Positions 16,677 through 19,115 of a stretch of 64,000 nt of DNA are shown piece by piece (position 1 is the first letter of the stretch; each line of letters opens with the position of its first letter). Source of the DNA: an uncultured Prochlorococcus sp. (lineage in GTDB: Bacteria > Cyanobacteriota > Cyanobacteriia > PCC-6307 > Cyanobiaceae); NCBI RefSeq assembly GCF_902536725.1, contig NZ_CACAYO010000001.1, positions 1 through 64,000 on the forward strand, read 5' to 3'. The position numbers and the translations under genes were made by a program. A model generated the notes under the pieces. That model was not told the origin of the DNA and did no database searches. It worked only from the letters and a program-made list of their open reading frames with translations.

Positions 16677-16880
16677 AATCTAAATAAATTTCATTCTAAC
16701 AAAAACGTATCAAAAAGGCGTTTATATTTTTAGGTTCTCTTTAATTGAACAAAGGGGGTGTGATTTCGTTTTAGCCCGAATAATTACCTATGACTGTCTT
16801 TAGCGATATTTATTAAACTGGATAAACTAAATTCTCCAGTAGATTTTTGCCTTATTTTTTGGAAGTTGTTAGGGTATTAT
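16677..16880. other. intergenic region, nothing assigned
   Basis: About 200 bp between two minus-strand genes. It contains a CAAAGGGGGTGTG stretch (near 16750) in otherwise AT-rich DNA and a nine-codon ATG frame at 16791. Neither is enough to call a gene. Confidence 0.3.
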
Positions 16881-17108
16881 TTAATCTTCTGCATTTTCAA
16901 AATCTCTTAGCAAACGAAAAGTTTTGGAAATAAAAGGGAAGATCCATACCAACAACCCCACTACTGTTATCAAAGCGACAAGAAAACCCAAAATTGCTAA
17001 GAATCCGCCTGTTACATCCCCTTCGTAAAAGCGATCAAGCCCAATCGGAGCACCAACTCCTAAAAGGAAGAGTCTTGTTAAAGTTTGTTTTTCTTTTTTT
17101 CTCAACAT
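16881..17108 (-). CDS. TM2-domain membrane protein
   Basis: About 75 residues from the ATG at 17108. The core LFLLGVGAPIGLDRFYEGDVTGGFLAILGF is the TM2 pattern (GxxGxDRFYxG between two helices), followed by ALITVVGLLVWIF. The frame stays open upstream to 17195, but that extension (MGFVKKYWWIESELKV...) does not fit the family, so the internal start is preferred. Confidence 0.7.
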   Translation of the reverse strand: MLRKKEKQTLTRLFLLGVGAPIGLDRFYEGDVTGGFLAILGFLVALITVVGLLVWIFPFISKTFRLLRDFENAED

Positions 17109-17615
17109 AAATAATATAAAAAGAGATCTTATCCCCAATTTTAGATCGACTTTTAATTCGGATTCAATCCACCAGTATTTTTTAACAAATCCCACAGTAA
17201 ATCCCCCAGTAAATAATTACCCCTATGTGATTGTTTATTGATGTCTATAACAAGGGAAAATTTCTTAAATCTTTCAAATATGGCTTTGTATCTACGATTA
17301 AAATAATTCTGCCTGCCTATGGGGGAAAATGACATCCTATGCAGGTCAACTAAATACGGAGGGGGTGTTAGTTTATATAAATTTATAAGATATTCTCATA
17401 CATCTTCTGAGACAACGATTATCACAAATAAGTCAAATTCCCCCAACATTTCCCCCAACACTTTTAATCAAAATTCTGATAATGGAAGACATACTCTGAC
17501 ACTAAGGGAAGCAGCTTTTTAAGAAAAAAATGGATTATTTTTTGAAAATACTTATATTTTAAAAATTTTGATAATCTCTGAACATAGCAGACACTATCAG
17601 AGACGATTATTTGAA
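17109..17615. other. tRNA-proximal gap with repeated CCCCCA tracts; no confident gene
   Basis: About 500 bp between the TM2 gene and tRNA-Ser. CCCCCA-type tracts recur (around 17203, 17440 and 17452, with GGGGGA near 17320 and GGAGGGGGTG near 17357). Short open frames exist on both strands (17319-17522 plus, 17153-17335 minus) but look non-coding. Sequence next to a tRNA with a duplicated half may be debris of an integrated element; no integrase motif is visible. Confidence 0.35.
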
Positions 17616-17702
17616 CGGAGGGGGTGGGATTCGAACCCACGGTACCCTTGCAGATACGCTAGTTTTCAAGACTAGAGCCTTAAACCACTCGACCACCCCT
17701 CC
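17616..17702 (-). tRNA. tRNA-Ser(UGA)
   Basis: The minus strand reads GGAGGGGTGGTCGAGTGG at the 5' end. The anticodon stem-loop CTAGTCTTGAAAACTAG gives anticodon UGA, and a long variable arm follows as in type II tRNAs. The T-arm is GGGTTCGAATCCC and the acceptor closes with CCCCTCC plus a G discriminator. Total 87 nt, no encoded CCA. A copy of its 5' half lies at 18873-18915. Confidence 0.95.
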
Positions 17703-18909
17703 AGGCAAAAATTATTAAATTTTTCACAAATATAATTATACATCAGATTAGATCTTTTAATTTTTAAAAAGTCTTTTAATTTTATGCAGGTTTTGCTTAA
17801 GGTAATCTATTACTGAATCTGTAAAGCATCTCGCCCAAAATCTATTTAATCCTAAAATTCCTGAATATTTTGTATGGCCATAAGGACTTGGGCCTATTAT
17901 TAATTTTGGATTAATAAAAATTGATCCTTGATTTTGCTTGATTGAATTGTGAAAAGATACATGCTCACAAATTTTTTCACCATTTCTACTCAAGCCTATG
18001 TATTTTGCATTATCAGGTATGCTCGATTTTCTATAAATGGCTAAACCCCCGAAAGCAGAATCTACCGCAATAATTTTTTTTGAAGGAATTATTTTAATCA
18101 TTCTTGAATATACATTTCTTGATTCCGATTCAAACCTACTGAATCCAATGTTTAATTCTTCTTTTGTTGCTTGCCAGCAATCATTAGGAGACCAAATATT
18201 ATGACGTAGTGCCCAAATATCGTAGTATGCACCTTTTACATTTGCTGTCTGAACAGACCACCCTTTTTCTGAAATACATTCTTTAATTACTTGACTATTG
18301 ATATTACTACAAACACCATCTGTATCGACAACAATTAAATAGTCTACCCAATCATTTTTTTTACTTTTTAACTCCTCTAAACATCTGTTTCTACATAGGG
18401 CCAATCTTTGTGTATGAATTGGTAATTTCGTTCTTAATCTTCCAAAAGATTCATAACGAAAGTTTTTTTTCTGCCTTGAAAGTTTTTTTAGGCTATCTAA
18501 TGTTTTGTCATCACTATCAGATTCAACAAAAAAATATTCAATTTTATTAGCAAAATATAGACCTTTATCTAAACATTTTATTGTTTGGAAAATTTGTCTT
18601 TGACAATTTCTTATTGTGCCAACTATTAAAAAGTTCAAAATCTGTTAGTTTAGGTGGAATCAAACCTTACATATACTAGTTATATCAGTTAAATTTTTAA
18701 AGATTTTTCTTATTACAAAAGGAAATTTTTTTGTGTTGAGCAAAGAAATTTTTGTAGTCCCCAATGGTTCCCTTATCTTGATAGGGTTAATTTATTCTTA
18801 TTTTCTTACTTGTAAGATCAACTTTATATCAATCATAGAAGATTTATTAAGTTTATTTTTTCCTAAAAAAGATAGTTTTCAAGACTAGAGCCTTAAACCA
18901 CTCGACCAC
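17660..18909. mobile_element. putative tRNA-Ser-targeted integrated element or its remnant
   Basis: A 37-nt direct repeat (17660-17696 inside the tRNA, 18873-18909 outside) bounds about 1.2 kb that holds a single glycosyltransferase gene. The repeat covers the anticodon stem-loop to near the tRNA 5' end; similarity extends a few bases further with mismatches. No integrase, helicase or capsid gene remains between the repeats. Boundaries are the repeats themselves and are approximate. Confidence 0.6.
17757..18638 (-). CDS. GT-A-fold glycosyltransferase-like protein
   Basis: A 293-residue protein. The N-terminus MNFLIVGTIRNCQRQI and FFVESDSDDKTLDSLKKL are a nucleotide-sugar-binding start. LIVVDTDGVCSNI (about residue 103) carries the DxD-type metal motif, and DSAFGGLAIYRKSSI (about 193) is the acceptor-side region. 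It resembles enzymes that decorate surface polysaccharide. It is the only gene between the tRNA-Ser and the copy of its 5' half, so it is probably cargo of a tRNA-targeted element; cell-surface glycosyltransferases are common island genes in this genus. Confidence 0.7.
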   Translation of the reverse strand: MNFLIVGTIRNCQRQIFQTIKCLDKGLYFANKIEYFFVESDSDDKTLDSLKKLSRQKKNFRYESFGRLRTKLPIHTQRLALCRNRCLEELKSKKNDWVDYLIVVDTDGVCSNINSQVIKECISEKGWSVQTANVKGAYYDIWALRHNIWSPNDCWQATKEELNIGFSRFESESRNVYSRMIKIIPSKKIIAVDSAFGGLAIYRKSSIPDNAKYIGLSRNGEKICEHVSFHNSIKQNQGSIFINPKLIIGPSPYGHTKYSGILGLNRFWARCFTDSVIDYLKQNLHKIKRLFKN

Positions 18910-19115
18910 TCTTCCAAAGGGTTTTTCAGTTTTATTGGACTTAAGACAATAACATAAGAAATTAGTCACATTCTAAAAAATCGAAGATTTAAAAATTATT
19001 TCAAGATAATAATTTAAGATAGGAATTTTTATTAATAATGATGAGTTAAATCGTTATAACAATCTATTATTAGTGAAATTTAGTTCACAAAAAATTTAGA
19101 ATGCTGCCAAAAAAA
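18639..19115. other. gap flanking the tRNA fragment; no gene seen
   Basis: Apart from the tRNA-Ser fragment (18873-18915), this 477-bp AT-rich stretch shows no open frame with coding character and no clear hairpin terminator. Confidence 0.4.
18873..18915 (-). repeat. partial copy of tRNA-Ser 5' half (putative attachment-site scar)
   Basis: 37 nt are identical to tRNA-Ser positions 17660-17696, then 4 of the next 6 bases match. The orientation is the same as the intact tRNA. It lacks the T-arm and the 3' acceptor strand and so cannot be functional. Confidence 0.85.

Follow-up and report, generated by a model that had tools for sequence, protein, structure and literature searches.

A likely cargo cassette with a single predicted glycosyltransferase gene, inserted at tRNA-Ser(UGA) in Prochlorococcus

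The stretch of DNA that we analyzed, hereafter the window, comprises 64,000 nucleotides from an uncultured Prochlorococcus sp. The only tRNA gene that ARAGORN calls in it is a tRNA-Ser(UGA), around which the following features lie, listed from the downstream to the upstream side of the tRNA.

16753..16765, minus strand: 13-nt remnant of the original tRNA 3' end (tRNA positions 73-85, 12/13 matching)
16881..17195, minus strand: gene for a 104-aa membrane protein, TM2-like by eye, within what is taken as an older downstream insertion
17356..17367, minus strand: 12-nt remnant of a tRNA 3' end (positions 78-89), where synteny with the tRNA end of L088, L068, and L057 resumes
17368..17614, minus strand: second insertion, gene-less, 247 bp, downstream of the tRNA
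17438..17461, minus strand: repeat pair within this downstream unit, GTTGGGGGAAAT twice with a period of 12, found by eye
17615..17703, minus strand: intact tRNA-Ser(UGA), the target
17704..18872, minus strand: inserted one-gene unit, repeat period 1213 bp
17735..17740, minus strand: -10-like TATAAT upstream of the tRNA and within the unit, read by eye
17757..18638, minus strand: predicted GT-A glycosyltransferase gene, 293 aa, TTG start, the sole ORF of at least 60 aa between the repeats
18754..18772, minus strand: repeat pair of the left end, GGGAACCATTGGGGACTAC, now worn; distance to the scar start, 144 bp
18873..18916, minus strand: outer scar of the upstream unit, formed by the displaced 5' half of the original tRNA-Ser (positions 1-44), from the joint reconstruction
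18947..18952, minus strand: -10-like hexamer, read by eye, lying upstream of the scar and presumably part of the ancestral tRNA promoter

The tRNA and the scar form a direct repeat (17660-17703 versus 18873-18916) that is identical at 42 of 44 positions, including an exact run of 37 (17660-17696 and 18873-18909). This is far above chance, the runner-up direct repeat in the same 10 kb being 32 nt long at 75% identity. The outer copy corresponds to the 5' half of the tRNA, from the acceptor stem to the anticodon stem-loop. An initial annotation, made from the letters alone, had described a tRNA-Ser(UGA) with a duplicated 5' half that brackets a glycosyltransferase gene and nothing else, with no integrase remaining. 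The ARAGORN call and the repeat coordinates agree with that description, and the only ORF of at least 60 aa within the unit is the glycosyltransferase, which leaves no integrase there. Of the marks of a tRNA-targeted insertion, the site therefore has the intact tRNA and a fragment in direct orientation on the correct side and lacks an integrase of its own. On the insertion reading, both the 5' half of the intact tRNA and its promoter come from the inserted unit. A -10-like box occurs 20-60 bp upstream of the tRNA in 103 of 106 cases, a weak test because shuffled sequences already give a fraction of 0.59.

Sequence families alone gave the cargo protein no name: its Pfam matches, to GT2, were sub-threshold (E 0.063 and 0.071), and its NCBIfam match to PgfS (E 6e-4) fell far under the family cut-off. 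The broad class was settled by a fold search with an AlphaFold2 model (pLDDT 84.9), which retrieved GT-A enzymes such as COLGALT1 (E 5.6e-10) and Mnn9 (E 3.3e-9); judged by this model, the earlier naming appears right, and the cargo is a predicted GT-A glycosyltransferase. The DxD aspartates Asp105 and Asp107 are invariant across 10 homologues, and dN/dS is 0.12-0.18 against five homologues, a pattern that points to an enzyme kept by selection. A putative role in surface sugars is plausible. The gene ends 54 bp from the tRNA, and its protein has matches at E ≤0.001 in eight of 151 genomes, two of them marginal.

We searched the tRNA region in 151 Prochlorococcus genomes and took 117 stretches from among the matches listed. 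Leaving out of the counts L061, which has two inverted tRNA copies, and 12 stretches without an intact tRNA (L085 and L137-L147), we obtained 104 stretches that together with the window make 105 loci with an intact tRNA. The excluded L061 (genome G095) is a single contig on which the tRNA-Ser region is present as two inverted copies, perhaps an assembly artefact. The neighborhood is conserved, with nrdJ and genes for 88-aa and 64-aa proteins upstream and genes for 66-, 194-, and 109-aa proteins downstream. The distance from the 64-aa gene to the tRNA is 1071-1105 bp in 17 of the 34 loci that have no 5' scar and have the 64-aa gene in view; in the window, the 64-aa gene lies 1083 bp from the scar, matching this empty-site spacing, and among the 26 occupied loci in which that gene is visible, 11 have the same distance at 1074-1114 bp. 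The spacing exceeds that of the empty site in 15 of these 26 occupied loci and in 17 of the 34 unscarred ones, which we read as further or older insertions or as other lineages.

When the flanks of the window unit were joined at tRNA position 44, 22 single alignments spanned the joint with at least 150 bp on the left and at least 40 bp on the right; 20 of them are shown, each from another locus (for example L115, 94% identical over 978 bp). In most of these, the right part is the tRNA's own 3' half, 45-53 bp, and only L130 spans the entire joined piece; the right-hand match is short because the downstream side of the window holds other insertions. The joined flanks thus rebuild the uninterrupted site of the relatives, and the window unit is a precise insertion. 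The syntenic comparison that the initial annotation had proposed accordingly yields relatives that lack both the tRNA fragment and the glycosyltransferase.

Altogether, we count three insertions at the tRNA-Ser of the window, the two on the downstream side being older than the upstream unit. The first 165-180 bp of the gene-less downstream unit are 86-94% identical to downstream-side DNA of L091, L119, L121, and L054. The 104-aa protein farther downstream matched no Pfam family at E 0.01, and the tRNA start implied by the 13-nt remnant beyond it is separated from the conserved 66-aa gene by 161 bp, the spacing seen most often at empty sites. By score, the 3' remnants are weak, with shuffles as good in 17 of 300 trials for the 12-nt and 39 of 300 for the 13-nt remnant (for the former, 2 of 300 in a narrower region), yet both still count because they lie exactly at synteny joints.

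Across the 105 loci, drawn from among the matches listed, 5'-half scars occur upstream of the tRNA in 41 and 3'-half scars downstream in 21; 10 loci have both types and 53 have neither, some contigs or stretches ending before a scar could show. Seven loci have two stacked 5' scars. Conservation extends over tRNA positions 1-44 in 5' scars (n = 62) and 28-89 in 3' scars (n = 25), so the two overlap in a common core, the anticodon stem-loop; only the sharpness of the edges is informative here because the scars were chosen by the ends of BLAST matches. The initial annotation had called 3' halves the commoner kind of fragment. In general this holds, as 159 of the 3919 tRNA/tmRNA islands in Islander have a 5' fragment (Table 1 of PMC4383910, from the part of that paper available), but at this tRNA 5'-half scars are common.

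The 48 upstream units comprise 24 gene-less units of 164-168 bp, 12 units of 656-1252 bp, and 12 of 1.9-11.7 kb. Among those of 656-1252 bp, nine have one ORF of at least 60 aa and three have two, and five of the larger ones contain a divergent tyrosine recombinase beside the tRNA. Cargo varies from unit to unit and includes a MORN protein, a CHAT protein, and proteins without a family. In L114 and L122 (genomes G136 and G103), an 11.6-kb unit, bounded by a tRNA-Ser 5' half on one side and the intact tRNA on the other, encodes named UreC and UrtA; its other genes, judged by size and order, are presumably also of urease and urea transport, and its ORF list holds no member of the recombinase clusters. 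Each end of this urease unit in G136 bears GTGACCA repeat pairs. On the opposite side, over half of the 22 downstream units show past the tRNA, by eye, a hairpin and then a T-run, taken here as a terminator. Small units, most of them without an integrase, thus pile up on both sides of tRNA-Ser and re-supply the half that they displace.

Larger elements with recombinases, which the initial annotation had predicted for other strains, do sit at the same place. In L063, L117, L127, L109, and L071, a related ORF of 323-405 aa adjoins the tRNA; that of L063 matches Phage_integrase below the cut-off (E 0.0017) and the phrog_1 integrase at E 7.6e-6. Residues Arg260, Lys283, Arg354, His377, and Tyr386 are common to nine aligned recombinases, a pattern that we take to fit a tyrosine recombinase. 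Among the matches listed, 21 of the 151 genomes have a recombinase homologue upstream of tRNA-Ser, the match starting 185-531 bp from the tRNA and in every case reading away from it. A second, ordinary integrase is also present in L063, L117, and L127, and L063 further encodes a Prim-Pol and a VapE-like helicase, relatives of both occurring in L117 and L127. On a Prochlorococcus contig from the viral collection (L183), the recombinase lies 181 bp downstream of tRNA-Ser, with relatives of the integrase and VapE beyond it. The unit in the window has no divergent tyrosine recombinase adjoining its tRNA, and in its genome (88% complete) each recombinase search returned one match, to a 389-aa Xer-like protein found in most genomes.

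Similar arrangements were seen elsewhere. In L210 (G201, another genus), tRNA-Ser(UGA) is flanked by divergent recombinases about 265 bp upstream and about 150 bp downstream. At tRNA-Pro(UGG), L223 (G051) has two 5' halves, L214 (G004) a 3' half, and L216 (G084) a degraded copy that is almost complete (positions 8-74), with integrase relatives nearby; by comparison with tRNA-Pro, two-sided use of tRNA genes may be general. A search of viral_contigs with the 405-aa recombinase found no relative, by a method that detects close relatives only, L183 in that collection having a 31% relative. The same collection searched with the tRNA-Ser 5' half gave 36 contigs, of which one is L183 and 35 have an intact tRNA-Ser; these 35 are apparently phage and contain none of the marker proteins used. 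Over 32 bases, the tRNA-Ser 5' half of these contigs (L174-L209 except L183) is identical to that of Prochlorococcus.

The ends of the units are conserved as well. Of 62 left ends, 40 contain repeat pairs with a period of 11 bp, every one of them located +45-50 or +98-105 from the core, against a mean of 4.5 and a maximum of 8 left ends in shuffled sequences. On the downstream side, a pair of this kind precedes the 3' scar in 10 of 22 units, against 1.0 in shuffles; these counts are not independent events because the rows are related to each other. One pair, of the GACCA type, was searched as the pattern GNGACCANNNNGNGACCA in 266 whole genomes and gave 28 matches in 16 genomes, with none for the reversed control; every match falls at tRNA-Ser or at a 5' half of it. 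In 11 GACCA-type units, 804-1252 bp long with differing genes, some of them common to several genomes, every left pair sits 148-149 bp from the scar start, and eight of the units also show a right pair, 162-165 bp before the tRNA. Within 1.5 kb on each side of the 28 matches, some of these stretches being cut by contig ends, tblastn with three recombinases and one integrase found no recombinase. Repeats of the TTCCGAA type are common to the 166-bp units and the recombinase-bearing units; the GACCA type has no recombinase-bearing member among its 28 matches, and we found no helper recombinase for this class, which is that of the window.

The left pair of the window fails the automatic pair test; at the same position, the orthologue in AG-892-L04 reads GGGACCATTTTGGGACAAC. 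By position and sequence, the left end of the window unit belongs to the GACCA class, but it is worn. No right repeat pair was found in the unit, and the last 16 bp before the tRNA (17704-17719) resemble the 166-bp units, while orthologous cassettes end otherwise, which suggests that the right end is a chimeric junction. The initial annotation had called the element decayed or satellite, and each word captures something: satellite fits the recurring integrase-free class with conserved ends, so the window unit is not simply debris, and decayed fits the worn end repeats of this copy. Two further observations concern the cores. The left ends of L063 and L127, and in variant form L117, have a second anticodon stem-loop core, CTCTAGTCTTGAAGACTAGCG, about 100 bp inside. 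Separately, L142/L229 (G138) contains a second tRNA-Ser copy about 31 kb from the intact one, its anticodon loop split by about 100 bp with TTCCGA repeats; in its order of core, repeats, and second core it is like the left end of a recombinase unit, and it is possibly an excision footprint.

The same cassette recurs in other genomes. In AG-892-L04 (L168), the whole unit with both 5' halves is present at 91% identity over 1487 bp, and a 3' half lies downstream. The gene adjoins the tRNA in AG-347-K16 (L170), where the left end differs and the stretch examined shows no 5' scar; in AG-347-I21 (L171), a 5' half, a 166-bp unit, and the tRNA come, in that order, after a 76% relative; and in AG-422-O15 (L169), the gene is followed by a 5' half rather than an intact tRNA. 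A 92% homologue in L220 (G108) lies at about 1.208 Mb, with no tRNA-Ser within the 15 kb examined. In an nrdJ tree of 54 loci, the window forms one supported clade with its nearest relatives L109, L100, and L102, whose upstream contents differ: a 9.1-kb recombinase-bearing unit in L109, a 166-bp unit plus a 1.1-kb cassette in L100, and a 166-bp unit in L102. Distances between 166-bp units are uncorrelated with nrdJ distances (r = -0.03, 14 loci), and occupancy is slightly clustered on the tree (18 changes against a shuffled mean of 20.4, with 9 of 200 shuffles as low).

Our observations thus comprise a precise insertion, sites with and without a unit, ends that are conserved, larger units with a recombinase at this very position, and a second genome with the same cassette. 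The stretch is probably best explained as a non-autonomous one-gene cargo cassette that entered tRNA-Ser(UGA) at its anticodon stem-loop through site-specific recombination. A circular form would have carried a promoter, a tRNA 5' half, the anticodon-loop core, and the left end. Strand exchange at the anticodon loop, presumably catalyzed in trans by the recombinase of a larger tycheposon-type element, would join this circle to the tRNA, so that the host's 5' half ends up 1.2 kb upstream together with its old promoter and the tRNA is completed by the half and promoter of the cassette. The downstream units would be the mirror image, with the 3' half. Once in place, the glycosyltransferase may alter a surface sugar. 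The copy in the window is probably now fixed and immobile, given that its left repeats show wear and a right pair was looked for without success.

Other histories of the unit are conceivable. A larger recombinase-bearing tycheposon could have inserted and lost its interior to deletions that spared one gene between the ends; recombinase units at the same place and, in the window, the worn left repeats, the lack of a right pair, and the chimeric right end would all suit such a remnant. We nevertheless hold it to be improbable, since the small units are a recurrent size class (12 of 48, 656-1252 bp) with open genes and fixed repeat offsets, all 28 GACCA matches are without a recombinase neighbor in the up to 1.5 kb covered on each side, and the glycosyltransferase unit recurs with both 5' halves in AG-892-L04. 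Somewhat less improbable, though still unlikely in our view, is that cassettes made long ago by site-specific recombination now spread by homologous recombination between conserved flanks and repeated tRNA halves. Good conservation of the flanks speaks for this, as does the chimeric right end, which hints at a crossover between adjacent units; disagreement between tree and occupancy is also expected from homologous exchange. The seven two-scar loci, however, differ in their stacking: three of them, L063, L117, and L087, have the 166-bp unit in the outermost position and one, L100, has it beside the tRNA, variation that repeated insertion at the tRNA would give, and recombinases are present at the locus in the 21 genomes noted above. 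That the repeat is a partial tRNA duplication or an ancient feature, with no insertion at all, would explain only the bare repeat; the empty sites, the joint reconstruction, and the variable cargo contradict it, and we consider it scarcely credible.

Taking recombination in trans at the anticodon stem-loop as the preferred reading of the window unit, we tentatively extend it to both sides of the tRNA, an extension to which we give a little under even credence. Here, tRNA-Ser(UGA) would serve as a two-sided, integron-like platform on whose near-palindromic anticodon stem-loop mirror-image recombinases act, with upstream cassettes bringing a promoter and 5' half and downstream ones a 3' half and terminator. 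The GACCA class, with cargo of single genes and even a urease/urea-transport operon, would have no autonomous member and be moved wholly in trans. The cassette model as such predicts that cassette and helper have repeats in common, and the fixed offsets of the repeats make cassettes easy to search for.

The closest named kind of element to the window unit is the tycheposon, reportedly described in Prochlorococcus by Hackl et al. in 2023. Tycheposons excise and are dispersed in vesicles or phage particles. Like them, the units described here insert into a tRNA gene and leave a tRNA fragment at the far end, the larger tRNA-Ser units have a divergent tyrosine recombinase by the tRNA and some of them Prim-Pol and VapE, and two tRNA-Ser units, in which no recombinase was seen, carry the nutrient cargo of urease and urea transport. 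Tycheposons are, however, 4-200 kbp in size according to the accessible portion of PMC10872708, whereas the window unit is 1.2 kb with one gene and no recombinase. A further difference is that the displaced fragment is the 5' half, so that the unit supplies the promoter, and that mirror-image units lie on the other side of the tRNA.

With the islands of Islander, as set out in the part of PMC4383910 at hand, the window unit shares a regenerated tRNA, a displaced fragment at the ends, and an anticodon-centered crossover. The method, by the same portion of PMC4383910, discards candidates under 2 kb or without an integrase and would therefore miss the window unit, and one-gene tRNA units in general fall under the size and integrase filters of finders of this type. 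Use of the tRNA 5' half as an attachment site is described, in the section seen of PMC8371274, for pTN3-like archaeal integrases, which are like the present case in the half used and unlike it in their recombinases and hosts. As the same section of PMC8371274 has it, nearly all recombinant tRNA genes of bacteria retain their original promoter; the window unit would instead replace it, and replacement of a tRNA promoter at every insertion would be unusual by that account. Among the top-ranked part of the literature, judged by title and abstract opening, we found no description of 5'-half insertion or of one-gene units at tRNA-Ser.

Prochlorococcus combines small genomes with a very large gene pool. 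A promoter-bearing one-gene cassette that slots into a tRNA would swap traits singly, perhaps those of surface sugars. Integron gene cassettes, too, are small, hold one gene each, stack at a single site, and depend for their movement on a recombinase encoded outside them. Units of the window's type are like them in being small, one-gene, and stacked and, on the present reading, moved in trans; they are unlike them in having a tRNA gene as their platform, no integron integrase in the unit, and end repeats with an 11-bp period.
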